Positions 6,446-36,606 of a stretch of DNA of 42,726 nt are shown one piece after another. Where the stretch lies: NCBI GenBank assembly GCA_900696575.1, contig CAADHD010000013.1:1-42726 (forward strand). Reading direction: 5' to 3'. A program made the translations under genes and the position numbers. Source of the DNA: an uncultured Bacteroidota bacterium (GTDB taxonomy: Bacteria; Bacteroidota; Bacteroidia; AKYH767-A; OLB10). Under the pieces are notes generated by a model. It was not told where the DNA came from, ran no database searches, and was given only the letters and a program-made list of their open reading frames with translations. Each line of letters starts with the position of its first letter. Position 1 is the stretch's first letter.

Positions 6446-6504
6446 TACCGAAAAACATTAATTCGATAATTTCGTATTGTTTGATGTTACAATTAAAACC
6501 GGCT

Positions 6505-9500
6505 ATGAAAAAGCTAATCCCATCAGCTTTACTACTTTTATTTATTGCGAATTCTTTTGATGTCAGAGCGCAAATATCTACTTCAAACGGAAATGGCGAT
6601 TGGAATAATCCGGCAACATGGTTACCTGTCGGGGTTCCTCCAATAAACAATAACGTAGTTATCCGTGCTTCTGATTCTGTTTGGGTGAACAACCCAACCC
6701 AAATAGTTGCTGATATTACTGTAAATGGAATTCTATCCGTAAACAACATTGCCTCTGCTGATTTAACCTTTGATGGTCATTTGACAATTAACGGAAAGTT
6801 ATACAATAACGGATACGTTGAAATGGTTACTCCAGGCAAAAATTTTGTGATGGGTGCCGGTTCACTTTATCAACATAACCCCAGGAATGATTTGAATACC
6901 CATTTGTTTTTTCGAGGTGTGGAGAATTTTGCCCCGACAAGTACTTTGGTTATCATGAAATGGGATGATGAGAACATTCCGTTGGGAGCAACTAACAGAG
7001 TTACAAGTGACTTCGGAAATGTAGTATTAAGCTACAATTCAGCTACTGTTTGGGAGCAACGTGGTCGTTTTGGGCCTCCCGGTAATGCAAATCGGGTAAA
7101 AGGGAGCTTTACCGTTACGTCAGGATTAATTAGCATGGATGACGGAACAAGCAGCCCCACCACTGCATTAACATTGCAAACCGTTTTGATAACAGGTACA
7201 GCACAGGTAGTCTTTCAAAAAGGTACTAACAGAAATCTGACTCTGATTACCGGCAGTTTTACAGATAACAGTACCAATCCTTTGCCAACTGTTATTATGC
7301 AAAATTCCTATGGTGCTTTAAACTGGACTGTAAATGGTAATCTTAATATCAGCCATCCTTTTATTGGAATAGAAGGAACTTCCAATGAGAATGCTACCGG
7401 AAGACTTACAGTAAATGGTAATTTCAACATCTCAGGCGGGAGTTTCGAGTATTGTACGCGCGTAAATGCTTTAACGGAGATTACTGTTAATGGTAATACA
7501 ACAATCTCTGGTCCTGTTACCAAAGTACGATTCAACGATGGCAACAATTTGGATATGAATTTCATTACGAATGATTTCGTAGTTTCTAATTGTAACGACA
7601 TTGTCTTACTGGGGGGCAATTACGGTATAACCCTGCCTGGTGGCACCCCAACGGTTACAATCAACAATGATTTTCTTTTGAATGGCGATTGCAGTGTTAC
7701 CATTTTAGATTCAACTGCAAGTACACGCAAAACACGCGTTAATGTTATACGAGATTTGATTTCAAGTTCACCGAATGCCAATCTTAAACTTGCCAATAAT
7801 CAAGGTGCGGTTACGCTTCGTGTAGGAAGACATCTGACTTATACCGGGGGTAATTATATTGGACAGGCAAATAACAATTCTACCGGGATTGACTCTGTAA
7901 TTGTTGTCGGAAATTTTACTTACAACACTCCTACAGCTTCAAATTATTTCAGAGCAAACTATGGTGTTGGAAATACCTTTTTAGAAGTTAATGGCAACAT
8001 GACTGTTATTAATTCCGGCACAGCTAATAATCAGGGGATCAGTTTAATTCATATCCCAACTGCCATGAACATGGGAACAGGACAACTGAATGTTACTATT
8101 GGGGGAACTTATTTGCAAAATGGTGGTCGTTTTGTTGGAATCAATCGAGGTGCAGGTGCGCTAACTTTTAATTGCACAGCCGGCCTGTTTGATTTTAATG
8201 GAGGAGTGTTTATGGGAATTAACAACCTTGATACTATATCTTCAGGGGCTGCAACTTATAACTTATTAAGCATTGATTACGATGGAGGATTATTCATTGC
8301 TCATAATGGCAGCACTACAACCGGTCCGGTTTTAAATGTGAATATTACAAACAATTGCAAAATCAATTACACTGCAGTTACTGATCAATTCCGATTTGTT
8401 GGGTTATTTCTTGTTCAGACATCCATCAATATCCTTCCATTGAATCTTACCGTTGGTGGTAACATGACCTTTTCCGGAGTAAACGGAAGCTTCACTTCAA
8501 GTCATTCGGCAGGAAATGAAACAATCGCCATAACAGGTAATTTAACAGTTTCTGCAGGAACAAATCATTTCAATTTATTTCCCAATTCAGGTTACCAAAC
8601 CAATGGGCACACTGTAAACATGACTGTTAACGGGCAAGTTAGTATTTCCGGTGGTTTCACTACGCTTTGTGCTGAACTGGGTACTTTGAATGCAACTTTT
8701 AATCAGAATCTGACTGTAAGCAATGGTAATTTTGTTCTAAAATCTGGTTTTGGCAGCGGAACATTAAATATAAACGGAGGGTTCACTCAAACTGGCGGTT
8801 CGGTAGAATTGTATAAGAACTCAACATTCACTAACAATCTGGTAGTGGCAATGGTAGTTAACGCAGATAATGACGCAGTTGGTGATTTTTCGCATACAGG
8901 TGGTACCATAAGTTTCAGTGATAATAGCAATCCGAGTTCAGGAGAGAATCTTCTTTCTGTTAAATCTCCAAACTTTACTATTGGTGGTAATGGTATCATA
9001 ACTTCTGCTGGTGCTGGCAGTTCGTTGATCTTGGGTATAATTGATTTCTCAAGAACCGGTACCACAGTGTTTGCCAGAGGTATTGGAAGTTCTCATAACG
9101 TAACTCAAGCACGATATATTATTTCAGCAGGAACAACTGTTGATGTTACAACCGGAAATATGCAATTGGCATCACACAATAATAACGCTGTTATTGATAT
9201 GCTAAAAATTAACGGAAGTGGGGTGTTGTGGCTCCGCGGTAGCAATCAAGTTTACTCAAATGGAACTTATACCTACTGTAATATTCAGACTTTTAACTTT
9301 AGCCGTATCAGAATTGAAAACCCTAATGGTTTTTACAATGGAACCAATACTGCAGCTCTTAACGCAAACAATAATCTGAATTTTGCTCTTGCTACCGGAA
9401 ATTTTGTAGAGTACCGTGGTACGGCAAATCAGATCGTAACAGGGTTAGGCGTTGGTGTTGCTACTTTATCACAGCATAAATACGGTGCCCTGGAGATTAA

Positions 9501-10731
9501 TCATCAGGGAATACCCGGTGTCAATTACGTTTATCCTTCAGCCGACCTGAGCGTATTTATCAAGTATCAGCTAATACTAACCCAGGGAGAATTTAACCTT
9601 GATCCCGATAACAATCCTGCTACGCTTAATGGCAGAACCATCACTGTTGAAAGTGCATCTGCTGTTGCAGTAAGCCGTACCAACGGATATATAAAAAGCG
9701 AAACACGCGATGGTAGTGCAGCAATTCGCTGGTTTATGGGAAGTGCTACCGGTACCCGTACAATTCCTTTTGGATATGACCCATCTAACTATATTCCATT
9801 CAAGTTAACCACTTCCGGTGGAACCGTTGATACGGTTACAATGGCAACCTATCGTACTCCGGCTGCGGATAACCTGCCATTTCCGCCTACCGTACTTCAT
9901 GTTAACGATTTATCCGGTGTTGATAACAGTCTTCAAACTATTGACCGTTTCTGGCTGGTTAATGTAAAAGGGTCAGTAGCCTCGGTTAATTACGAATTTA
10001 CCTATGTGCCGGCTGAAGCTTCACTTCTTGCCGGTTCTCCCCGGGCTCAAAAATGGTTAATGCCAACTTCGCTTGGCTGGAGTTTTCCGTATCCGGGCAC
10101 TCAATCAAATATTGTAAATGGTGTAGTTGCCAATGGTATATCTAACAAATCCGGTTGGTGGACGCTTTCCTCCATCACAAGCCCGCTACCCGTTGAACTG
10201 CTGGCATTTGACGCAAAGTGCATAAACAATGAGGTGAATCTTGAATGGGCAGTCGCATCTGAAAAGGAGAATAGTCATTTTACCCTGCTCAAGAGTTATA
10301 ATGGAAAAGATTTCTTTAAGTTGGCTGATATAGATGGAAGAGGAAATTCATCTGCAGTAGCATTATATTCTTTCAGTTACAGAGAAGAAAGGCCAGGCTT
10401 ATGTTTTTATAAGCTATTACAAACTGATTTTAGCGGAGCATCCTCGAATTTAAAAACAATTGCTTTTAATGGATGTTTGCCGAATGATGTTTTTTCAGTA
10501 CAGGTTTTCGGTAGTCAAGCGTTGATTACGGTACCTGTTGAAGGGGATTATTCAATGATAATAAACGATGCTTCGGGCAGAATGATAGAAATTAAACAAC
10601 TCTTGAATCTGAGAAAGGGATTGAATACTTCCGGACTGAACTTGGATCGTTTCGCTGAAGGTATTTATTTTATTAGAGTTTCATCCACCGGAGGAAACAG
10701 CATAGTTTCAAAATTTTTTATTTTCCGATAA
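6505..10731 (+). CDS. Large T9SS type A surface protein with beta-repeat body
   Basis: ATG 6505 is chosen because it gives a standard signal peptide (MKKLIPSALLLLFIANSF...RAQ); ATG 6484 and TTG 6481 are in frame upstream. The product is about 1408 residues. From about residue 25 to 1000 it is an irregular array of short beta segments of the type TVNGNLNIS/GG, for example TVNGNFNISGG, LTVGGNMTFSG and LNINGGFTQTGG. These suggest a beta-helix or stacked-strand stalk. A later domain contains YIPFKLTTSGG and an immunoglobulin-like part. At about 1229 the Bacteroidota linker LPVELLAF opens a fibronectin-like domain, and the protein ends in a type A T9SS sorting domain (LNLDRFAEGIYFIRV..FFIFR). The protein is probably a cell-surface adhesin or matrix component; no catalytic motif was seen. 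Its last 14 bases overlap the stop region of the convergent gene. Confidence 0.85.
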   Translation: MKKLIPSALLLLFIANSFDVRAQISTSNGNGDWNNPATWLPVGVPPINNNVVIRASDSVWVNNPTQIVADITVNGILSVNNIASADLTFDGHLTINGKLYNNGYVEMVTPGKNFVMGAGSLYQHNPRNDLNTHLFFRGVENFAPTSTLVIMKWDDENIPLGATNRVTSDFGNVVLSYNSATVWEQRGRFGPPGNANRVKGSFTVTSGLISMDDGTSSPTTALTLQTVLITGTAQVVFQKGTNRNLTLITGSFTDNSTNPLPTVIMQNSYGALNWTVNGNLNISHPFIGIEGTSNENATGRLTVNGNFNISGGSFEYCTRVNALTEITVNGNTTISGPVTKVRFNDGNNLDMNFITNDFVVSNCNDIVLLGGNYGITLPGGTPTVTINNDFLLNGDCSVTILDSTASTRKTRVNVIRDLISSSPNANLKLANNQGAVTLRVGRHLTYTGGNYIGQANNNSTGIDSVIVVGNFTYNTPTASNYFRANYGVGNTFLEVNGNMTVINSGTANNQGISLIHIPTAMNMGTGQLNVTIGGTYLQNGGRFVGINRGAGALTFNCTAGLFDFNGGVFMGINNLDTISSGAATYNLLSIDYDGGLFIAHNGSTTTGPVLNVNITNNCKINYTAVTDQFRFVGLFLVQTSINILPLNLTVGGNMTFSGVNGSFTSSHSAGNETIAITGNLTVSAGTNHFNLFPNSGYQTNGHTVNMTVNGQVSISGGFTTLCAELGTLNATFNQNLTVSNGNFVLKSGFGSGTLNINGGFTQTGGSVELYKNSTFTNNLVVAMVVNADNDAVGDFSHTGGTISFSDNSNPSSGENLLSVKSPNFTIGGNGIITSAGAGSSLILGIIDFSRTGTTVFARGIGSSHNVTQARYIISAGTTVDVTTGNMQLASHNNNAVIDMLKINGSGVLWLRGSNQVYSNGTYTYCNIQTFNFSRIRIENPNGFYNGTNTAALNANNNLNFALATGNFVEYRGTANQIVTGLGVGVATLSQHKYGALEINHQGIPGVNYVYPSADLSVFIKYQLILTQGEFNLDPDNNPATLNGRTITVESASAVAVSRTNGYIKSETRDGSAAIRWFMGSATGTRTIPFGYDPSNYIPFKLTTSGGTVDTVTMATYRTPAADNLPFPPTVLHVNDLSGVDNSLQTIDRFWLVNVKGSVASVNYEFTYVPAEASLLAGSPRAQKWLMPTSLGWSFPYPGTQSNIVNGVVANGISNKSGWWTLSSITSPLPVELLAFDAKCINNEVNLEWAVASEKENSHFTLLKSYNGKDFFKLADIDGRGNSSAVALYSFSYREERPGLCFYKLLQTDFSGASSNLKTIAFNGCLPNDVFSVQVFGSQALITVPVEGDYSMIINDASGRMIEIKQLLNLRKGLNTSGLNLDRFAEGIYFIRVSSTGGNSIVSKFFIFR

Positions 10732-12249: not shown

Positions 12250-13119
12250 TTAATTCCAGCTAACGGTTTGTCCAAGTTTTACCTGTTGAACATTCAGTAT
12301 TTCATGGGTGGTCGAAGATGCCCCCGTTTTATTGATGAAAGCAACTACATAGGAATTACTTGTATTTATACCACTCAATGAAATGGAATAGCTTTTTGCG
12401 AAAATGCTATTTTTAATTGTAGAGGAAGCCGGAATGGCCTCTCCGCCATTGGGGGTAACAGATTTTCTTACCACTCGGTTATGTACATAACTATTGATAG
12501 GGTTACCCTGATTGTAAAACGGGCTTCCGGTAATGGTGTTAAATCCATTTGCCTGGCTGTAACCTGTTCCTGTCCCGGTGATGTTATCTTCAACTAAGTA
12601 AACATTTAATGTAAGTCCGGATGAAAAGTCTTCAATAAAGCCAGCTTTTATATCCAGGTTTGCATTGCTTCCGGATATGGATGAGGAAATAGACAATCCG
12701 CATTTGGCCGTTCTGCTTAGTGCTGCCGTAGTATTGCTTAACCATTGATTGGAATTCAGTACAACATTTCCAAGCGATGGTATTCTGCTTACCATACCTG
12801 AGGGAATTCCGGTTCCGAACGTACTGAAGTACCAGGTATAAGCCGGTATCGCCATGCTGTCGTTGTTATGAATAGTAATACTGATTACTTTACCTGAATA
12901 GGTACTCACTATCTGATCTCGTTTGTAATCGGCATCAGGGCAAGTACTGCACCAGGTACCGGTGAATGTTTCAAGCAATACACGTTGTACAAATGAAGTT
13001 GGTAAGTCATTTCCTGCCGGCAGAGGCGGAGTGTTATCAGCAGGAGTAATAGCATCGTTTTTTTTACTGCATGCCTGTAAAACAAACAGTGCAAGCGTCA
13101 GAAATACAATTCTCTTCAT
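12250..13119 (-). CDS. Omp28-like outer-membrane lipoprotein with thioredoxin-like CxxC
   Basis: The 289-residue protein starts with a lipoprotein signal (MKRIVFLTLALFVLQACSKK; lipid-modified C17), then a proline-rich linker. From about residue 45 it has LLETFTGTWCSTCPDAD, a thioredoxin-like active-site region with C57 and C60 followed by proline. The next part (HNNDSMAIPAYTWYF) and the beta-rich C-terminal half (about 150-289) resemble Bacteroidota Omp28 family outer-membrane proteins. The CxxC suggests thiol-disulfide exchange at the cell envelope, but activity is not established for this family. The neighbouring giant protein is unusually cysteine-rich, which makes an envelope redox role attractive but speculative. 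The gene has its own terminator, and no clear promoter was seen. Confidence 0.75.
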   Translation of the reverse strand: MKRIVFLTLALFVLQACSKKNDAITPADNTPPLPAGNDLPTSFVQRVLLETFTGTWCSTCPDADYKRDQIVSTYSGKVISITIHNNDSMAIPAYTWYFSTFGTGIPSGMVSRIPSLGNVVLNSNQWLSNTTAALSRTAKCGLSISSSISGSNANLDIKAGFIEDFSSGLTLNVYLVEDNITGTGTGYSQANGFNTITGSPFYNQGNPINSYVHNRVVRKSVTPNGGEAIPASSTIKNSIFAKSYSISLSGINTSNSYVVAFINKTGASSTTHEILNVQQVKLGQTVSWN

Positions 13120-13721: not shown

Positions 13722-16700
13722 TTATCTCACCAAACTTACCCTTCCAACATAACGATGCTCTTTGTAAAAGACATCGGTTACAACGGCCTCGTACACATAG
13801 ACATCTTCTTTGGCTTGATCACGGCTGTTTTGTACCGATCCATCCCATGGATAAGAAATACAATCTTCTGTGAAATAAATTTTATCTCCCCATCGGTTCC
13901 AGATGTTCATTTTAACATCGCGGATGTTGATGCCTTTTACTAAGAATACATCGTTTGTTCCATCGCCATTGGGTGAAAAAGCATTGGGAATAAAAACAGT
14001 GGTGATTGGTTCTATGTAAATCCATTTGCTGATAGTGTCGGTACAGCCGAAATCATTCATTACAAAAAGCAGCACATGGTACCAGCCTGTATCCTTATAG
14101 GTATGCGTAGGAGTAACTTGTCCGGAAGTATGGCCATCTCCAAATTGCCATTGATAATAATTGGCTCCCTGCGAAAGATTATGGAATGTAATCACCGGAT
14201 TCAGGATGTTTGTTTTTGGAGGCGAAGGCATAAAATCAGCCACCGGTTTGGGATGCACTGTAACCGCATTGGGAATGGTTACTGTATGAGTACAACCATT
14301 GTTGGAAGTAACGGTTAGCGATACATTATAATTACCTGAGTGCATATAAATATGAACAGGATTCTGAACGGAATCATATCCGCCATCACCGAAATTCCAT
14401 TGCCATGCCACAATGTTTCCTGATTGAATAAACGAGCTGTCGGTAAAGTAAACAGGCAACGGGCCACATCCGATGTTGTTTACAGCAGAGAAATGTGAAA
14501 CCGGATTGGGATAGATAGTAATGTTCATACTGGCAGTATCGCTGCAACCCATGTCAGATAAGGCTATGAGTGTTACCGTGTATGTTCCCGGAGTGTTAAA
14601 TGATATGGAAGGATGAATGGCAGCAGAGGTTTGTCCGTTGCCAAAATTCCATAAATAAGAAACAATGCTTCCGGAACTGATAGTGGACTGATTGATAAAC
14701 TGCACATTGTTGCCTGCACAGGCATTGGCAGCATTAAAATCTGCATCAGGCTGCGGGTTTACCACCACAGGAACAGTAACCATGGTTTTGCAGCCGAAGT
14801 TATTGGTCAGTTCCAGTGAAACATTGTATGTTCCAGCGGATGTGTAGTAGTGCGAAGGCTGAATCTGAGAAGATGTATTACCATCTCCGAAATTCCAGTT
14901 GAAGGTATTTCCTGAAGTGTTGGATGGGTCATTACCGTTCACCAGCAAAACAGGATCAGTAATACAACCTGCTGTTACAAGGATAGAAGGCTCAGGAGCA
15001 GGGAAGATGCGGATGGAATCGCTTAAAGTGTTTGAGCATCCGTTGAGCGAAGTTACGCTAAGTGTAATGTTATAAGTGCCGGGCAATGTATATTGATGTA
15101 CAGGATGCTGAGCTTGCGAAGTAGTGCTGTCACCAAGATTCCATGACCATTGGGTTACAGGAGAACTATTAGGCACTGAAGAAAGATCAGTGAATAATAC
15201 CTGGGTGTTAATACATGCATCGGGCGCAGTGAAATTTACAATTGGTAAAGGATATACTTCTACCGGAAGTGTAATTGTGTTTACACAACCGTTAGCTGAA
15301 GTGGCAGTAAGCGAAACCTGAAATGTACCATAAGTGCTGTAGGTGTAAACAGGGTTCTGATCAGTTGATGTATTGCCGTCACCGAAATTCCACAGGCAGC
15401 TAACAGTACCTCCGCCTGAAAGAGTACTTTGATTGAAAAAAGCGGTTGGCATGCCAAGACAAACATTTCCTGTGCTGAAATTAGCAACAGGAATTGCAAA
15501 AGAATTTACGGTTTGAGTAACAGACTGCGTACATCCCTGAGCAGAAGTAACCGTAAGTGTAACAGGATAAGAGCCGGACGAGCCGAAAGTATGTGAAGGA
15601 TTCTGAGAAGAGGAAGTATTACCATCACCAAAGTTCCATGACCATGAAGTGATGGTGCTTCCGGCAACGGTTGATGTATCAGTAAATACAGATTGGCCAT
15701 TTAAACAGGCATTCGTAAAACTGAATCCGGCCAAAGGCAAGGAGTAAACGGTTATTGATTGAAAGGCACTATCCATACAACCCTTATCGCTTACTGCTAC
15801 CAGCATTACATTATAACTTCCTGAATTGGAATAAATGTGGGAAGGATTCTGAATTCCGGCAAAGGTGCTATCGCCAAATTCCCAATACCAGTTTTGAATG
15901 CTACCTGAGTTGATGCTGGCATTGCCTGTGAATTGAGATGGGGAAGTATGGCAAACAGGCTGTGTGGTAATAGAGGCATCAGGTAACGGGTTTACACGAA
16001 CAGGCATGGAAAGGGTGTCGTTACAGCCTTTATCAGAAGTAACAACAAGTGTTACGTTAAATAAACCGTCAGTTAAATAGGTATGTGATGGATTCTGAAT
16101 TGATGCATTACCACCATCGCCAAATGTCCACTCCCAACCATCAATGCTGCCGGGTGTAATGGTAGACAGGTCAGTAAAATCCGTCATTGAGCCACGACAA
16201 ACTTCGGTGGCTGAGAAGTCAGCGACAGGTCGCGGATTAATATCAACCGGAGCAATTATTGTGTCCGAGCACCCTTGGTTTGATGTTACAATTAATGTTA
16301 CAATATAATTTCCTGCTGCATTGTATTGATGCATTGGGTTTAAGCCGATCCCTGATGAGCCATCACCAAAATCCCAGTTCCAGCCTGTAATGTTTCCATT
16401 ATTTACCGCTGAAAAATCCTGGAATTGAGTAATTTCCCCGAAGCAAACGGTATTGCTTACGAATAAGGCATCAGGCTTTGGATAGATTGTGATGTTTTGA
16501 GAGATTGAAGCAGAACATCCGTTTCCACTGACAGCCGTAAGTGTTACTGTATAGCTTCCTTGAATAAATTGATTTGATGGTTGTTGCGCTGTTGATGAAT
16601 TGCCATCTCCGAAATCCCAAAACCATGAGTTAATAGTACCGCTCGAAATGGTGGTATTGTTGGTTAATAATGTTGGCGTGTTTTCACAATTTGGCGAAGC

Positions 16701-19700
16701 TGAAAAGCTGACCAGCGGCAAAGGATGAACGGTAACATTAGCATTGTAAACTGCAGAGCAACCTGATCCATCAGTAACTGTTACGGTGTATGTTCCTGCT
16801 GTATTCACAATGATGCTTTGCGTAGTGGCTCCGGTTGACCATTGATAAATCGATCCAGGATTACCGGCATTGAGTACAGTGGAACCTCCATCGCAAAAGA
16901 CAGCCGGAGTAAGATTTCCCGCCAAACCTGTTCCACCTACTGTTATGTTGGCGCTTCCTGATGACTGACAACCAAAATTGTTTGTAACTATTACGGAGTA
17001 GAAACCTGAAGTACCTACTGTAATAGTTTGAGTTGTTTCGCCACCTGGCGACCATAAATAAGTGGAACCTGCATTTCCTGCATCCAGGGTAACGGTATTA
17101 CCGGAACAGATAAATGCTGATTGAAGACTTACAAGGGGTGATGGATTTACAGTAACACTGACAGTATCCCAATTCTGGCAACCGTTGGAATCTGTAACAA
17201 GTACAGTAAAACTGGAGTTGGCTAACGGATTTACGTAGATAGTTGCAGAGGTGCTGCCGGAAGGGCTCCACAAATAAGATGTTCCTCCTGTTGCAGATAA
17301 CGTGGCAGTAGCACCACTGCATAAAGTTACATCAGGTCCGGCATTAGCTGAAGGAAGCGGATTAACGGTAACAACAACTGTATCGTTGTTAATACAACCG
17401 GCAGCACTTGTGGCAGTTACAATATAACTTGTCGTAGTGGTTGGGTTAACTGCAATCGAAGCTGTTGTAGCTCCTCCCGGATTCCACAAATAGGTTGTTC
17501 CGCCTGTTGCCGTAATGTTTGTTGAGGCGCCTATGCAAATGTTTTTATCTGCACCTGCATTAACAACAGGAAGCGGAAGGACATTGACATTCACAGTATC
17601 TTGATTTGCACAACCATTGCTGTCAGTTACTAAAACCACATAGGAAGTATTAACTAAAGGAAATACAGTTATTGATGCTGCCGTTTGTCCGCCCGGTGTC
17701 CATGAATAGATATATCCTCCCTGTGCATTCAGCGTTGCAGAAGTTCCAAGACAAACAGACTGATCAGGCCCGGCATTGGCTGCCGGTAATGAATTTACAG
17801 TTACCGGTTGTTGAATGGAAGCTGTACAGCCGTTAGAAGAAGTGGCAATCAGGGTTACTGTATATGTTCCGGCATTGTTGTAAAGATGAGAAGGATTTTG
17901 GGCTGCAGAAGTAGTGGCATCTCCAAAGCTCCATTGCCATGATGAAATAACGCCACCGGGAACTGTGGATGTAGAAGTGAAAGTTGTTGGATTGCCAACA
18001 CAAACCGGAAGAGCATTAAACGAAGGCTGAGGCAATGGATAAATGGTTATAGGTTTGGTAATGGTATCGCGGCAACCGCCATCAGTAGTAACAATTAAAG
18101 TGATGTTGTAAATGCCGGGAGATGAATAAATATTCGTGGGATTCTGAAGTGTTGAGATGTTTCCATCTCCGAAATTATAATTCCATCCTGTAACATTTCC
18201 GACACTCACAGTAGATGTATTAGTAAGGCTCACTGCTGTTCCGGTACAGGCATTGTTCAGATTAAAATTAGCTTCAGGCAAGGGAAATACTGTGAATGAC
18301 TTGGTAATGGAGCTTACACATCCCTGATTCGATGTAACAGTGAAGGTAACAGAGTAAGTGCCTGGTGTTGCATAAATATGAATCGGATTTTGTTGCTGAG
18401 AAACATTGCCATCGCCAAAATCCCATTGCCAACTAACAATAGTGCCACTGTTGATGGTAGAGATATCCATAAAAAACATGCTGTCGCCTATACAAACATC
18501 ATTGGGTATAAACTGAGCCTGTGGCAATGGAAATACATTTACAGTTGTGGAAACTGTTCCACTGCAGCCATTGCCATCGGTTATAGTTACACTGTAAGTT
18601 CCGGTATTGTAAACGGTGATAGTCTGTGTAGTGGCACCGGTTGACCAAACATAGGCAGATCCGGAGTTTCCGGCATTCAAAGTAGCACTGTCGCCCTGAC
18701 AAAACTGTGCATTGGTTAAACTATTGGTAATTGTTCCGCCAACACTGATTACGGCTGATGAGGATGCCGTACATCCCTGGGGAGTTGTAACGGTTACAGT
18801 ATAAGTTCCTGCACTCGATACTGAAATGGTTTGTGTTGTTGATCCGTTTGACCATACATACGTTGATCCGGGATTGCCGGGATCAAGAGTTATACTCTGC
18901 CCGGAACATACAAATGCATTCTGCAAGCTGACAACCGGCAATGGATTTACAGTTACATTCACAAATCCTGTCCCTGTACAACCGTTGATATCCGTTACGT
19001 TTACGGCATAAGTTGTAGAAGTTGATGGAGTAACGGTAATGGTTCCTGTGGTATTTCCCGATGGATTCCAATAGTATGACACACCTCCGGTAGCGGTAAG
19101 ATTGACACTCTGGCCTATGCATATTGATTGATCGGGGCTTACTGTCGGTACCGGTAATGGATTTACCGTAACAATTACCTGAGCAGTAGCCGTACAGCCA
19201 TTAGCATCGGTTACTGTAACGGTATAAGTTGTATTAGTTGGCGGGCTTACAGATATCACATCTGTTGTTGCGCCTGTATTCCATTGATAAGTTACTCCAC
19301 CCGATCCAACCAAGGTTACTGATCCTCCCAAACAAACACTTTGCGGGTTGCCGGCATTTGCCGTTGGTGGAGGATTAACAATTACTGTATGAGTTACCGT
19401 GCTGACGCAACCGTTCAAACTGGTAACCGTCAATGTAACATCAAAACTGCCCGGTGTGTTATAGGTAACGGATGGATTGGGAGAAGTGGAAGTTTGACCA
19501 TTGCCAAAATTCCAGTTATAAGTTGTTCCGCCTGTAGATGTGTTGTTGAAAGTAATGGTTCCTCCCTGACATGTTCCTAATGGACTGAAGTTAAATGCAG
19601 CCACCGGCAGCGGATAAACTGTTACAGGCAAGGAGAAATTATTTATACAACCATTAGGTGAAGTTGCGACAAGAGTAATAGTGTAAGTGCCCGTGTCGCT

Positions 19701-21464
19701 GTATGTGATGGTTGGGTTTGTTCCTGTTGATGTTTGGCCATTTCCGAAGTTCCAGTTGTAAGTACTTCCCGCAGGATTGGTATTGTTGGTTATGTTAATG
19801 GCAGTACCCAAACAGGCATTCCCTGCTGCGAAACTGACAACCGGTAAAGGATAAATGGTTATAGGGATGATGACTGTATCAATACAACCTAGATTGGTTG
19901 TAACCACTAATTGTACATTGTATGTTCCGTCATTGGTATAAGTATAAACGGGATTTTGTTGTGTAGAGGTTCCGCCATTACCAAAATTCCAGTTCCATGA
20001 CGTAAAAATTCCTCCCGGCAAAGTTGACAAGTCTGTAAACTGAATGGGAGTATTTATGCAGGCATTTGTTGCTGTGAAATTTGCGGTAGGTTCATAAGCG
20101 CTTATTACATCCACTGTATCCGTATCAGTACACATGCCATCACTTACCGTAAGAACATACGTTCCCGGTCCGACTGTAATACCCGGATTGGTTGAACCTG
20201 TACTCCACAGATAAGTGTAAGTACCGCTTCCTCCGGTTGCAGAACCATATAAAGTAGCTATGTCATTGCAGGCTATTAGCTGGTCAGTACCTGCATTGGC
20301 CTGAACTCCCACTACTGTTAAGCAATAAGAATAAATCTGAGTTCCATTCATAGGACAGGCGTCATCCTGTACCATTGCTGTAAAGCATTGCTGAGTACCT
20401 ATGTCAGCATCGGTTGGCGTCCAGCAAAAGGTGGCTGTAGGATGTTGTGCTGCATTAGTGGTGAATGTTCCTCCGGCAATACCGCCATCCCAGCTTACAA
20501 AAACATTTTGCCCGGCATCAGCATCATCAGAGTAGATGTTAAAACAATAAGGTTGATTGGCACAGATGGTTGCGGTAAACTGATTGGTTCCGTTAATACC
20601 GGTAAGGGTGGGTAATTGATTGTTGCAGGCAATTACTGTAACCTGAATATCTCTTTCCACAGTACCTATTAAAACTCCATTCCTGTACTCGCTAACAAGC
20701 ACGGCCATTACTGTAACCTGTAATTGCTGAGGTGTCATGCAGATATCACCTGTGTTTGTATTGAACTGAACCGAGGGGCTTGAATTAAGTGGATTTGTTG
20801 CTGAATAGGGTGGGATGTAGTTGACTGTTCCTGCAGCAGTTTGTAATGGGGTGATCAATGAGTAAGCCAGCGAGTCGCCATCAGCATCAAATGCTCCATG
20901 GTTAAAACAAAGCTGTTGGCCAAGGCAGGCAAAGGGTACCGGTTTATTTGAAAATACCGGTGAAGTATTGCAGGGCGAAATGGTATTGTTTAATGTAGCA
21001 TAAATATGAAATGTACTTGTTCCCGGATTGGAAATGGTATTGATGGCAGCATTGCGGCAGCACAGGTCATAACTGAATCGCCAGTCAGTGCATTGCATGG
21101 GTAAAGTAATAACGCCTTCGTAAATCCATTCCTGTATTCCGGTAAATGTTCCGCCATTGCATGTGGATAAAGCGCTCGGGCAAAGAGGAGTTACTTGTAC
21201 TCCTGTTCCTGGTATAGGATTGCAGGTAACTCCAAGGCTCTGGCCGCAGGATGCAGAAGTTACATTTATATAGACACTGTTGGGCGCATTTATGCCAATG
21301 CAATCTCTGTAAAAAGATAATCTTACCCGGTAGGTGTTGCCTCCAAGGCAAGTGTAAGTCAGATCCGCGCCCATGGCATGACTGGCCTCGCTTTGGAAAC
21401 TCCAAAGACTGAGTAGTGAAAACAGGATGGCTGGTAAGGATTTTCTGAGTAGTTTTTTTACCAT
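13722..21464 (-). CDS. Giant secreted PKD/Ig-repeat protein with type B T9SS (gliding-motility-associated) C-terminal domain
   Basis: The 2580-residue protein has a signal peptide (MVKKLLRKSLPAILFSLLSL..SEA) and a cysteine-rich N-terminal part to about 385. A modular array then runs in this order: Ig1; PKD1-3 (about 455-700); Ig2-5 (700-980); PKD4-6 (980-1225); Ig6-10 (1225-1580); PKD7-17 (1580-2475). PKD modules show W.W.FG[DN]G...QNP and repeat every ~82 residues. Ig modules show Y.WS.G.TT..I.V...GTY.VTVTD and repeat every ~70. The last ~90 residues (IPNAFSPNGDGTNDVF..WNRWGD..Y) are the CHU_C/gliding-motility-associated domain, a type B T9SS signal that usually leaves the protein attached or handed to a partner outside. 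Likely an adhesin or surface fibre. All modules but one carry a regular cysteine pair. No catalytic domain was seen. Confidence 0.92.
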   Translation of the reverse strand: MVKKLLRKSLPAILFSLLSLWSFQSEASHAMGADLTYTCLGGNTYRVRLSFYRDCIGINAPNSVYINVTSASCGQSLGVTCNPIPGTGVQVTPLCPSALSTCNGGTFTGIQEWIYEGVITLPMQCTDWRFSYDLCCRNAAINTISNPGTSTFHIYATLNNTISPCNTSPVFSNKPVPFACLGQQLCFNHGAFDADGDSLAYSLITPLQTAAGTVNYIPPYSATNPLNSSPSVQFNTNTGDICMTPQQLQVTVMAVLVSEYRNGVLIGTVERDIQVTVIACNNQLPTLTGINGTNQFTATICANQPYCFNIYSDDADAGQNVFVSWDGGIAGGTFTTNAAQHPTATFCWTPTDADIGTQQCFTAMVQDDACPMNGTQIYSYCLTVVGVQANAGTDQLIACNDIATLYGSATGGSGTYTYLWSTGSTNPGITVGPGTYVLTVSDGMCTDTDTVDVISAYEPTANFTATNACINTPIQFTDLSTLPGGIFTSWNWNFGNGGTSTQQNPVYTYTNDGTYNVQLVVTTNLGCIDTVIIPITIYPLPVVSFAAGNACLGTAINITNNTNPAGSTYNWNFGNGQTSTGTNPTITYSDTGTYTITLVATSPNGCINNFSLPVTVYPLPVAAFNFSPLGTCQGGTITFNNTSTGGTTYNWNFGNGQTSTSPNPSVTYNTPGSFDVTLTVTSLNGCVSTVTHTVIVNPPPTANAGNPQSVCLGGSVTLVGSGGVTYQWNTGATTDVISVSPPTNTTYTVTVTDANGCTATAQVIVTVNPLPVPTVSPDQSICIGQSVNLTATGGVSYYWNPSGNTTGTITVTPSTSTTYAVNVTDINGCTGTGFVNVTVNPLPVVSLQNAFVCSGQSITLDPGNPGSTYVWSNGSTTQTISVSSAGTYTVTVTTPQGCTASSSAVISVGGTITNSLTNAQFCQGDSATLNAGNSGSAYVWSTGATTQTITVYNTGTYSVTITDGNGCSGTVSTTVNVFPLPQAQFIPNDVCIGDSMFFMDISTINSGTIVSWQWDFGDGNVSQQQNPIHIYATPGTYSVTFTVTSNQGCVSSITKSFTVFPLPEANFNLNNACTGTAVSLTNTSTVSVGNVTGWNYNFGDGNISTLQNPTNIYSSPGIYNITLIVTTDGGCRDTITKPITIYPLPQPSFNALPVCVGNPTTFTSTSTVPGGVISSWQWSFGDATTSAAQNPSHLYNNAGTYTVTLIATSSNGCTASIQQPVTVNSLPAANAGPDQSVCLGTSATLNAQGGYIYSWTPGGQTAASITVFPLVNTSYVVLVTDSNGCANQDTVNVNVLPLPVVNAGADKNICIGASTNITATGGTTYLWNPGGATTASIAVNPTTTTSYIVTATSAAGCINNDTVVVTVNPLPSANAGPDVTLCSGATATLSATGGTSYLWSPSGSTSATIYVNPLANSSFTVLVTDSNGCQNWDTVSVTVNPSPLVSLQSAFICSGNTVTLDAGNAGSTYLWSPGGETTQTITVGTSGFYSVIVTNNFGCQSSGSANITVGGTGLAGNLTPAVFCDGGSTVLNAGNPGSIYQWSTGATTQSIIVNTAGTYTVTVTDGSGCSAVYNANVTVHPLPLVSFSASPNCENTPTLLTNNTTISSGTINSWFWDFGDGNSSTAQQPSNQFIQGSYTVTLTAVSGNGCSASISQNITIYPKPDALFVSNTVCFGEITQFQDFSAVNNGNITGWNWDFGDGSSGIGLNPMHQYNAAGNYIVTLIVTSNQGCSDTIIAPVDINPRPVADFSATEVCRGSMTDFTDLSTITPGSIDGWEWTFGDGGNASIQNPSHTYLTDGLFNVTLVVTSDKGCNDTLSMPVRVNPLPDASITTQPVCHTSPSQFTGNASINSGSIQNWYWEFGDSTFAGIQNPSHIYSNSGSYNVMLVAVSDKGCMDSAFQSITVYSLPLAGFSFTNACLNGQSVFTDTSTVAGSTITSWSWNFGDGNTSSSQNPSHTFGSSGSYPVTLTVTSAQGCTQSVTQTVNSFAIPVANFSTGNVCLGMPTAFFNQSTLSGGGTVSCLWNFGDGNTSTDQNPVYTYSTYGTFQVSLTATSANGCVNTITLPVEVYPLPIVNFTAPDACINTQVLFTDLSSVPNSSPVTQWSWNLGDSTTSQAQHPVHQYTLPGTYNITLSVTSLNGCSNTLSDSIRIFPAPEPSILVTAGCITDPVLLVNGNDPSNTSGNTFNWNFGDGNTSSQIQPSHYYTSAGTYNVSLELTNNFGCKTMVTVPVVVNPQPDADFNAANACAGNNVQFINQSTISSGSIVSYLWNFGNGQTSAAIHPSISFNTPGTYTVTLIALSDMGCSDTASMNITIYPNPVSHFSAVNNIGCGPLPVYFTDSSFIQSGNIVAWQWNFGDGGYDSVQNPVHIYMHSGNYNVSLTVTSNNGCTHTVTIPNAVTVHPKPVADFMPSPPKTNILNPVITFHNLSQGANYYQWQFGDGHTSGQVTPTHTYKDTGWYHVLLFVMNDFGCTDTISKWIYIEPITTVFIPNAFSPNGDGTNDVFLVKGINIRDVKMNIWNRWGDKIYFTEDCISYPWDGSVQNSRDQAKEDVYVYEAVVTDVFYKEHRYVGRVSLVR
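14010..20300 (-). repeat. Coding tandem array of 17 PKD and 10 Ig-like modules
   Basis: Within the giant gene, PKD modules recur every ~245 bp (14130-16630, 17915-18430, 19500-19995 for the FGDG codons) and Ig-like modules every ~210 bp (16830-17710, 18640-19290, near 20190). Copies are diverged at the DNA level, so the array is old and not a recent slippage product. Boundaries are approximate. Confidence 0.85.
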
Positions 21465-33960: not shown

Positions 33961-36606
33961 TTACCGGTTCGGAATATCTTCTTCCATTACTTCCACCTTT
34001 TCTTCCTGTTCTTTATATTGCATCACCTGCTGTAAAGCATCTGGTACAACATCGCTGCAAATTACAATGAATGAACCTTTCCTGGCATGTTTCAATGCAT
34101 AGTTTATCGCTTCACGTTCCTGTGGAATCACTTTAACAGGTTTACTTCCATTAACAGATTTAATTCCCTGAAGCATCAGGTCTATGATTTCCTGTTCGGT
34201 ACGTCCGCGCAGGTTTCTGTCCTGACGGATGATTACTTCATCAAACATTTTAGCAGCTAACTGTCCAAGGCCGATGATGTCTTCGTTTCTTCTGTCGCCA
34301 ACACCGGCAATGATTCCGACTTTAGGTTTTGCTTCTACTTTTTCGAGAAATCGGGCAATGGCCTGAAATCCTGCAGGGTTGTGTGCATAATCAACCATAA
34401 CGGTGAACTTCCGAAACTGGAACATGTTCATTCGTCCCGGTGTTTGAACCGGTGAAGGGATAAAAGTTTCCAGCGCAAGCCGAATGTCTTCCATTTTAAA
34501 ATTGCGGATGAATGCAGTTAAGATAGCCGGCAAAACATTCTGAATCATAAACACGGCTTTGCCTCCGAAGGTTAGCGGAATGTTTACCACTTTATCTACT
34601 CTCAGTTTCCAGTTTCCTTTGCAAATGGTTACATAACCGTTTTCATAAATAGCGGCTAATCCTCCGTTATTACAATGTTCCTTAACAATCAGGTTGTTTT
34701 CGTTAAGGCTGAAGAAAGCTACTTTGCAATCAACTCCTCTTCTTATTTCGGTTACCAGTGGATCATCGGCATTTAAAATAGCATAACCTGAAGGCATGAC
34801 GGATTCTGCTACCACACCTTTTACTTTTGCCATATCTTCTAAAGTATTAATTCCTTTTAACCCGAGATGATCTGCAGCTACGTTGGTAATAATGCCAATG
34901 TCGCAATTATGAAAACCCAACCCGGCTCTGAGAATTCCACCCCGTGCAGTTTCAAGAACGGCAAAGTCAATAGTCGGATCTTTCAATACAAATTCAGCGC
35001 TTTGCGGGCCGGTGCAATCGCCCTGCTGAAGCATTTGGTTTTGTATGTAAATACCATCGGTAGTTGTGAAACCTACTTTATGTCCGCAGGTTTTGGCAAT
35101 GTGAGCAATCAGTCGTGTTGTGGTTGTTTTGCCATTGGTTCCGGTAACAGCTACAATCGGAATACGCGAATTTGAACCGGGCGGATAAAGCATATCTACC
35201 ACAGGTTCTGCAACGTTGCGTGGTAACCCGTCTGTCGGAGCAATATGCATGCGGAATCCGGGAGCAGCATTCACTTCCAGAATGGCTCCGCCTGCCTCGG
35301 CTATGGGAAGGCTGATGTCAGGGGTCATAATGTCAATACCGCAGATGTCAAGCCCGATGATGCGTGCGATGCGTTCGCACATAAATACATTATGCGGATG
35401 AACAATGTCGGTTACATCGGTTGCTGTACCACCGGTACTGAGGTTGGCTGTGCGCTTCAGAAAAAGTTCTTTTCCTTTTTCCAGAACAGTTTCAAGAGTA
35501 AGATTCTTCTCTTCAAGAATCTGCATGGTCATCTCATCAGCTTTGATAGCCGTCAATACTTTTTCATGGCCGTATCCTCTTCGCGGATCGGAGTTAATCT
35601 GATCAATTAACTGCCTGATGGTTGACTTTCCATCGCCAACAACAGCTGCGGGTTTGCGTTGGGCTGCCGCAATAAACCGGTAATTGATTACCAGAATACG
35701 ATGGTCGTATCCGGTGATATATTTTTCAACAATAACACCACGCGAAATTTTTTTGGCAATGGCCAGTGCTTCCACTGCCTGCTCTTTTGAATTGATGTTG
35801 ATGGTGGCCCCCCGTCCGTGATTTCCGTTAACCGGTTTAATCACCAGCGGAAATCCGATGTAATCAATGGCTTCCATCAAATCTTCCTCATCATAAATAA
35901 TCCTTCCTTTAGGCACTGGAATCGAAGCGGCTTCTAACAGAGTTTTGGTATCCTCTTTATCGCAGGCTATTTCAACGGCAATGCTTGATGTGGTTGATGC
36001 CACGGTTGCCTGAATCCGTTTTTGATTGATGCCGTAACCAAGCTGCACGAGCGAATGGCGGTTTAAGCGAATCCACGGAATGCCGCGGGCAGCCGCTTCT
36101 TCTACAATACTTCCGGTGCTGGGGCCAAGGCGTTCCTCTTCTCTTATTTCACGTAGTTTCTGTATATCCTCATCCAGTGCATATTCTTTTCCGTCAACCA
36201 ATGCCCGGGCAATGCGTACCGAAGCTCGTGCTGCATAAACGCCTGCCTTTTCTTCCATATATGAGAACACAACATGATACACTCCGTGTTCACCGGTGCT
36301 GCGCGTTCGGCCAAAACCGGTATCCATTCCGGCCAGGGTTTGTAATTCCAGGGCGATGTGTTCAATCACATGGCCCATCCATGTTCCTTCCTTCACACGC
36401 TTAAAAAATCCACCGGCATGGTCTTCGCTGCAGCGGTGTTCGTACATGGTAGGAAACATCTTTTCAAGCCGCCCGCTGAATCCTTCAATCTTATCGGTAG
36501 GAAAATCTTCAAGCTCTTCAAGATCGAGCTTCATCACTATTAGTTTATGTCTTCTTATGCTCCAGAAGTTAGGACCGCGCATGGGGCGGATCTCAAGTAT
36601 TTTCAT
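33961..36606 (-). CDS. cphA: Cyanophycin synthetase
   Basis: CphA polymerises aspartate and arginine into cyanophycin, an insoluble nitrogen store, using ATP. The 881-residue protein matches CphA1 throughout. The N-terminal domain (MKILEIRPMRGPNFWS..; GHVIEHIALELQ, about 96-107) is followed by the ATP-grasp domain with KPVNGNHGRGATINI and IVEKYITGYDHRILVIN (about 255-305). The Mur-ligase-like domain has the P-loop VTGTNGKTTTTRL at about 489 and ETARGGILRAGLGF near 560. Length equals that of cyanobacterial CphA. The convergent kmo gene ends 66 bases away. No cyanophycinase (cphB) or isoaspartyl dipeptidase gene is adjacent. No clear promoter was found. Confidence 0.95.
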   Translation of the reverse strand: MKILEIRPMRGPNFWSIRRHKLIVMKLDLEELEDFPTDKIEGFSGRLEKMFPTMYEHRCSEDHAGGFFKRVKEGTWMGHVIEHIALELQTLAGMDTGFGRTRSTGEHGVYHVVFSYMEEKAGVYAARASVRIARALVDGKEYALDEDIQKLREIREEERLGPSTGSIVEEAAARGIPWIRLNRHSLVQLGYGINQKRIQATVASTTSSIAVEIACDKEDTKTLLEAASIPVPKGRIIYDEEDLMEAIDYIGFPLVIKPVNGNHGRGATININSKEQAVEALAIAKKISRGVIVEKYITGYDHRILVINYRFIAAAQRKPAAVVGDGKSTIRQLIDQINSDPRRGYGHEKVLTAIKADEMTMQILEEKNLTLETVLEKGKELFLKRTANLSTGGTATDVTDIVHPHNVFMCERIARIIGLDICGIDIMTPDISLPIAEAGGAILEVNAAPGFRMHIAPTDGLPRNVAEPVVDMLYPPGSNSRIPIVAVTGTNGKTTTTRLIAHIAKTCGHKVGFTTTDGIYIQNQMLQQGDCTGPQSAEFVLKDPTIDFAVLETARGGILRAGLGFHNCDIGIITNVAADHLGLKGINTLEDMAKVKGVVAESVMPSGYAILNADDPLVTEIRRGVDCKVAFFSLNENNLIVKEHCNNGGLAAIYENGYVTICKGNWKLRVDKVVNIPLTFGGKAVFMIQNVLPAILTAFIRNFKMEDIRLALETFIPSPVQTPGRMNMFQFRKFTVMVDYAHNPAGFQAIARFLEKVEAKPKVGIIAGVGDRRNEDIIGLGQLAAKMFDEVIIRQDRNLRGRTEQEIIDLMLQGIKSVNGSKPVKVIPQEREAINYALKHARKGSFIVICSDVVPDALQQVMQYKEQEEKVEVMEEDIPNR

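Follow-up and report, generated by a model that had tools for sequence, protein, structure and literature searches.

The window, that is, the whole stretch of 42,726 nucleotides from an uncultured Bacteroidota bacterium that was analyzed, contains a long gene on its minus strand, with the following layout.

13722..21464, minus strand: gene of the ladder protein, a predicted type IX secretion system (T9SS) type B substrate; open reading frame of 2,580 amino acids with 75 cysteines
20310..21464, minus strand: N-terminal region, residues 1–385, cysteine-rich, without a Pfam match at 0.001
14004..20309, minus strand: stalk of 27 modules, residues 386–2487 (17 PKD and 10 Ig_7-like), with 53 ladder cysteines
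14004..14255, minus strand: module 27, the last Ig-type module, with an F–G cysteine only (state 01)
13725..14003, minus strand: type B sorting domain (CHU_C / Bac_Flav_CTERM), residues 2488–2580, found by PF13585 and TIGR04131

The sorting domain belongs to the CHU_C family of Pfam (PF13585), scoring 50.5 bits against a cut-off of 27, and it is also matched by the T9SS type B sorting domain of NCBIfam (TIGR04131), where 35.5 bits are barely above the cut-off of 35. PKD_4 of Pfam (PF18911) reaches 810 bits (cut-off 27) and covers 17 stretches of the protein, while Ig_7 (PF19081), scored over the whole protein, gives 44.5 bits (cut-off 27.3), with no single stretch below 0.001 alone. The Polycystin model (TIGR00864) scores 151.9 bits, far below its curated cut-off of 1861.4 bits. 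We divided residues 386–2487 into the 27 modules, whose limits are our own. Inspected by eye, the N-terminus resembles a signal peptide, and the N-terminal region is taken to hold two Ig-like domains, a (about residues 175–283) and b (about 284–385), with limits also set by us. Elsewhere in the window there are a 1,416-aa protein (6481–10731, plus strand) whose T9SS type A tail stays below threshold and which otherwise matches nothing in Pfam or NCBIfam at 0.001, and a cyanophycin synthetase (33961–36606, minus strand; TIGR02068, 1291 bits).

One cysteine lies directly before strand B (here referred to as the A–B cysteine) in 26 of the 27 stalk modules, and a second one lies at the F–G turn (the F–G cysteine) in all 27. 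Only module 27 (PPKTNILNP...DFGC) is without the former. The two are 45–47 residues apart in Ig_7-like modules and 54–59 apart in PKD modules. In fact, 53 of the 54 cysteines in the stalk region occupy these two places, and the sole other one, C2023, is a cysteine in 4 of 19 aligned rows. The number of cysteines, their positions and the peculiarity of the last module had all been described correctly in the preliminary description of this DNA. A search with the N-terminal region found 26 loci, and the 23 of them whose open reading frame reaches 1,000 aa and bears the family motif were aligned with the window protein; L074, L075 and L076 have no such frame and stand outside the alignment. At the 53 ladder columns, cysteine is present in all rows that have the column (23 orthologues and the window protein), the sole exception being FG12 of L051, a serine that sits at a contig end. 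As a control for chance, a 13-residue stretch in mid-module contained cysteine in 15 of the 1,635 modules of the wider set described below. Moreover, four orthologues (L054, L055, L057 and L058) possess 22 modules instead of 27, with five whole modules gone around modules 18–23, and the register of the cysteines, i.e. the phase of the ladder, is kept in them.

An AlphaFold model of modules 19–21 (pLDDT 96.3, pTM 0.74) shows the first cysteine (residue 12) in a two-residue bridge directly before strand B (16–21) and the second (residue 70) between strands F (56–66) and G (71–81), each 11 residues long, and the other two modules repeat both placements. This strand order fits the earlier assignment of the cysteines to the A–B and F–G turns. 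It also bears on the reading that both cysteines of one module bond each other in an ordinary intradomain disulfide. All stalk modules of the window but one do have both cysteines, but by the strand order of the model one lies at each end of the sandwich, and with such bonds the conserved C2474, the F–G cysteine of module 27, would stay unpaired.

Because the orthologues hardly vary and therefore say little about pairing, the comparison was extended to paralogues encoded in the own genome, in related genomes, and elsewhere in the class and the phylum. For each of the two kinds of module, a profile model was built from the window and iterated on the fetched proteins, and cysteines were scored at the A–B and F–G anchors. 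Set 1 comprised 157 arrays of at least three modules, reduced at 50% identity to 107 representatives with 1,635 modules; array counts leave out loci L001–L030, L077–L106 and L247–L250 as well as proteins with fewer than three called modules. In SprB-type modules the A–B cysteine sits four residues earlier and narrow scoring windows gave false discordances, hence these windows were changed and then widened, and modules with runs of X were left out of the wide-window scoring.

Of the 1,455 junctions of set 1, 1,424 have A–B(n) and F–G(n+1) in the same state (1,325 with both cysteines, 99 with neither, 16 and 15 discordant; phi 0.853), counts that are not independent events, since the modules of one array are paralogous and the arrays share ancestry. 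Within the same module, 1,370 of the 1,635 have both cysteines, a number that speaks for the intradomain bond, 112 have neither and 153 are discordant (phi 0.545); at lag −1 and lag +2, phi is 0.498 and 0.723. A nonzero baseline of phi is expected because some arrays are poor in cysteine throughout, and shuffling within arrays controls for this baseline. When the F–G states were shuffled within arrays 2,000 times, the 31 discordances at lag +1 stood against a shuffled mean of 89.5 and a minimum of 72, while the 153 at lag 0 were no better than shuffled (mean 156.1) and the 129 at lag −1 compared with a mean of 124.7. Lag +2, with 48 discordances against a mean of 74.8 and a minimum of 54, is also below the shuffles, much less strongly than lag +1. 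With the terminal modules removed (91 arrays), 19 discordances are left at lag +1 against a shuffled minimum of 38; the corresponding numbers are 56 at lag 0 (mean 64.0, minimum 48), 47 at lag −1 (mean 51.3, minimum 37) and 30 at lag +2 (mean 41.6, minimum 30). Wide scoring windows give 23 discordances at lag +1 and 148 at lag 0 in set 1. A frequent pattern along the arrays, with the A–B state written first and the F–G state second, is '10 11 11 ... 11 01' or its later part.

Set 2 consisted of 21 further arrays, partly from genomes already sampled and without a redundancy filter, which were scored with frozen models. It is nearly saturated with cysteine: 453 of 490 junctions agree and 37 are discordant at lag +1, joint absence does not occur, and phi is −0.031. 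Many of these discordances are F–G cysteines shifted by a few residues, and wide scoring windows leave 17 of 488. Being saturated, set 2 neither supports nor refutes the lag +1 pairing. Taken over the sequences compared, the co-variation strongly supports A–B(n) with F–G(n+1) as the one pairing singled out, which is the pairing that the preliminary description had proposed.

Short arrays provide cases in which the two readings separate. Ten two-module stretches of the form '10 01' (dominoes) were called in the representatives of set 1. In four of the ten (L208 twice, L210 and L211) there are exactly two cysteines, one per module, and therefore a within-module bond is impossible there; three of the four stretches stand at the start of related proteins and are therefore not independent. 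Among the other six, four appear by eye to be miscalled, with shifted cysteines (L210 module 10, L232, L236 and L061). With same-module agreement at the level of shuffled data and these one-cysteine modules added to the placement in the model, we regard intradomain bonds as very improbable. Several arrays from phylum genomes outside the class (e.g. L208, L210, L212, L218, L231 and L243) have short ladders, such as '10 01' or '10 11 01', inside long runs of cysteine-free PKD modules, and these embedded ladders lie at similar places in different proteins. In L031 of the own genome one ladder stops and another begins, with 01 and then 10 at modules 9 and 10.

We then examined the ends of the arrays. 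In 41 of the 107 representatives no sorting-domain motif was recognised, and in 13 the motif lies more than 40 residues beyond the last called module, so that 53 remain with a last module beside the sorting domain. The A–B cysteine is absent from this last module in 44 of the 53, while in the 66 proteins that have the motif, 1,126 of 1,143 non-terminal modules possess this cysteine and 17 do not (Fisher p 5e-57). Eight of the nine last modules that keep the A–B cysteine carry another cysteine where their own strand G ends (e.g. VTVSVICDTL). Thus a last module that either has no A–B cysteine, as in the window protein, or has a strand G-end cysteine is found in 52 of 53 arrays. The claim that the last module lacks the A–B cysteine holds for the 44, and eight of its nine exceptions have a possible partner; it fails in L178, the sole terminal module of the 53 with an A–B cysteine and no partner before the sorting domain, which is the kind of case named beforehand as refuting. 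The sorting domain of L178 has three cysteines. The other end is less uniform: the first modules of the 107 arrays are '10' in 24, '11' in 61, '01' in 12 and '00' in 10, and most have upstream cysteines in uncalled domains.

The partner of an A–B cysteine also seems to be exchangeable. In L037 of the own genome (contig C16, 4147–8244, minus strand), four PKD modules have the A–B cysteine without the F–G cysteine, and where strand G ends, 71–72 residues after the first, the same four have a further cysteine. With wide scoring windows, F–G(n+1) stands without A–B(n) at 15 junctions of set 1, and at 7 of these a cysteine is found in the linker or where G(n) ends (EPRC, PPCN). The converse, A–B(n) without F–G(n+1), is seen at 8 junctions, and 3 of them, all from L037, have such a cysteine. 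In set 1, strand G or linker cysteines of this kind occur at 10 of 23 discordant but at 7 of 1,432 concordant junctions; in set 2 the figures are 5 of 17 and 0 of 471. The discordances with no substitute of this kind (13 of 23 in set 1 and 12 of 17 in set 2) are unexplained or miscalled. In set 2, 12 junctions have A–B(n) without F–G(n+1); strand G-end cysteines are present at 3 of them (L261 modules 35 and 39, L257 module 41) and absent at the other 9, one of which lies at a contig end and some of which have a cysteine just past the scoring window. The occurrence of strand G cysteines at discordant junctions suggests, as the simplest reading of these sequences, that A–B(n), the end of G(n) and F–G(n+1) meet at one place, the junction.

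The positions that would form the two ends of the ladder are as follows.

20925..20927, minus strand: C180, A–B cysteine of domain a, predicted first rung to C370; cysteine in 70 of 70 homologues
20355..20357, minus strand: C370, cysteine of the F–G loop of domain b, predicted partner of C180; cysteine in 70 of 70 homologues
20562..20564, minus strand: C301, A–B cysteine of domain b, predicted partner of C445; cysteine in 68 of 70 homologues
20130..20132, minus strand: C445, F–G cysteine of module 1, from module calls, orthologue alignment and N-domain homologues
14466..14468, minus strand: C2333, A–B cysteine of module 26, predicted partner of C2474 (last rung), from module calls and orthologue alignment
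14043..14045, minus strand: C2474, F–G cysteine of module 27, from module calls and orthologue alignment

C445 is a cysteine in 69 of 70 N-domain homologues. In a model of residues 175–540 (pLDDT 87.6, pTM 0.55), and according to our own mapping of residues, C180 is model residue 6, the last of the first strand of domain a (4–6) and ahead of strand 11–14; C370 is residue 196, between strands 184–193 and 201–211 in the F–G loop of b; and C301 is residue 127, the last of the first strand of domain b (123–127) and likewise ahead of the next one. Most other cysteines of the N-terminal domains pair by co-loss among the 70 homologues, with joint absences and discordances of 34 and 0 for C360–C381, 19 and 0 for C307–C347, 28 and 2 for C186–C242, 18 and 4 for C39–C165, and 6 and 2 for C73–C125; C135 and C136 are likewise lost together (9 and 0). 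The bookkeeping is even, as the 19 N-domain cysteines (all except the variable C81) and the 53 ladder cysteines amount to 72. By analogy with the modules, the states would be 10 for domain a, 11 for b and for modules 1–26, and 01 for module 27, and the ladder probably starts in the N-terminal domains with C180, C370 and C301, giving 28 links and 29 domains. The suggestion that TICANQP (C301) and DDACPM (C370) start the ladder is favored by this pairing-off of the other cysteines, but C301–C445 itself shows one joint absence and one discordance in the 70 homologues, C95–C301 scores equally, and co-loss alone does not decide between them.

On these grounds we propose that the stalk is a secreted or surface structure of 29 Ig-like domains (a, b and 1–27) ending in the type IX sorting domain, in which the cysteine at the A–B turn, on the lower end of one domain, would bond the cysteine at the F–G turn, on the upper end of the next. 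There would be 28 rungs, from C180–C370 and C301–C445 to C2333–C2474. Because A–B(n) is near the start of its module and F–G(n+1) near the end of the following one, the bonds would produce two interleaved rails, each composed of segments of about 24 residues (strand G, linker and strand A) joined by disulfides, with the parts from B to F as cross-pieces. Most of each domain would then be off the load path, and the stalk would be nearly inextensible and survive any single proteolytic cut. We consider this whole explanation, the A–B(n)–F–G(n+1) bonds together with the two covalent rails, to be highly probable.

The mechanical side can be expressed in numbers if the 28 bonds are assumed to exist. 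C180 and C2474 would then be connected by a shortest covalent path of 381 bonds including 15 disulfides, as against 2,294 without disulfides and 870 with bonds within modules, and on the same assumption no peptide bond out of 2,294 would be a bridge in the ladder, as against 843 with within-module bonds. A residue spans about 0.36 nm and a folded Ig-type domain about 4 nm. With these general lengths the ladder path would come to about 130–140 nm, compared with roughly 115 nm for the 29 folded domains. As the path length is close to the folded length, the stalk could hardly lengthen even with all of its domains unfolded. It would also be rigid, to judge from the covalent topology, the pTM of 0.74 for modules 19–21 and the superposition on GhpA described next.

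Among the solved matches listed for the model, the closest structural relative is the grappling hook protein GhpA of Aureispira sp. CCB-QB1, a long Ig/PKD-like array like the stalk of the window protein, known from cryo-EM (PDB 9flp, 9fls, 9flu, 9flv, 9flw, 9flx, 9fly and 9g8b). The eight entries superpose on the three-module model with the same geometry (Z 10.5–14.2, rmsd 3.3–4.4 Å over 228–233 residues), while the remaining matches listed with an aligned length above 200 residues (fibronectin, titin, cell-adhesion and similar tandems) give 6.3–12.6 Å, and the highest Z belongs to single PKD domains. The alignments made by Foldseek itself give 4.4–5.5 Å for five GhpA entries and about 20 Å for 9flw and 9flx. 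GhpA is longer than the window protein (5,898 versus 2,580 aa), and its cysteine pattern was compared at two modules, those visible in the HMMER output, which have cysteines at both places, before strand B and after strand F. The GhpA density may already show inter-module bonds. A search of 395 genomes for the gene of GhpA itself gave a best match of 34–38% identity. GhpA was solved as a multimer, with 56 chains in the eight entries, and this would suit intermolecular bonds that join neighboring stalks as in a bundle; such bonds would not require the matching states of modules n and n+1 seen in one chain, nor the loss of the A–B cysteine from the last module, and of all the readings this seems to us the most improbable.

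Disulfides between domains and stalks hardened by covalent bonds are both known. In isopeptide-stabilised pili and adhesins covalent bonds harden a long repeat stalk from inside each domain, whereas the ladder of the window would join domains and alter the covalent topology of the whole chain. A disulfide between neighboring Ig domains is known from D1–D2 of Siglec, at one junction only, whereas the stalk of the window would have a repeating ladder. SprB-type gliding and surface adhesins are large type B substrates exported by the T9SS (PMC12635249), as is predicted for the window protein from its sorting domain. In F. johnsoniae, SprF–GldK and PorG–GldK disulfides are described, and the part of that account dealing with disulfides mentions no bonds between adhesin modules (PMC12635249). 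In the titles and abstract openings searched, we found no description of bonds between consecutive modules of T9SS arrays, which does not prove their absence.

The positions of the cysteines, their conservation, their co-variation and the closure of the array ends are seen in the sequences; that the bonds form, at which site they are made, the first two rungs and the mechanical role we infer. The remaining reading is that the cysteines are kept for packing, as free thiols or for metal binding, and that no bonds form at all. It can draw on the missing Dsb and VKOR genes: DsbA (PF01323), DsbB (PF02600) and Thioredoxin_4 (PF13462) have 0 matches in the own genome, estimated at 100% completeness, and VKOR (PF07884) has 0 matches in 21 genomes, with the same searches finding matches in control genomes. 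But presence and loss in pairs across junctions, closure at the array ends and the switch to strand G cysteines look like the behavior of bonded pairs, and in the same protein family C360–C381 and C307–C347 are lost jointly without discordance, so we consider it even less probable than bonds within modules. The same genome encodes several cysteine-rich module arrays. An Omp28-family lipoprotein with a thioredoxin-like WCSTC motif (12250–13119, minus strand; PF11551, 93 bits) lies on the same strand as the stalk gene, with a divergent NUDIX gene between the two. We considered this lipoprotein as a dedicated oxidant and rejected it as a conserved partner, since of 26 orthologue loci only the divergent L075 has a match.

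If correct, the ladder rule would be a simple way of reading the cysteines of giant surface proteins of Bacteroidota, from which a disulfide map could be written module by module from the sequence. It predicts a mechanical property, that of near-inextensible, cut-tolerant rods, and leads one to ask how a protein of 75 cysteines would be oxidised in a genome that has no recognisable DsbA, DsbB or VKOR. In its widest form, to which we give an even chance, the proposal is that T9SS stalks in the Bacteroidota and relatives outside the class are two-rail ladders with bolted junctions and ends closed by rule, load-bearing and cut-tolerant independently of domain folding, and oxidised by a route other than DsbA, DsbB and VKOR. 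Several giant open frames with such modules, up to 7,941 aa, are present in one further genome (G505; contigs C167, C217 and C133; loci L250–L254).
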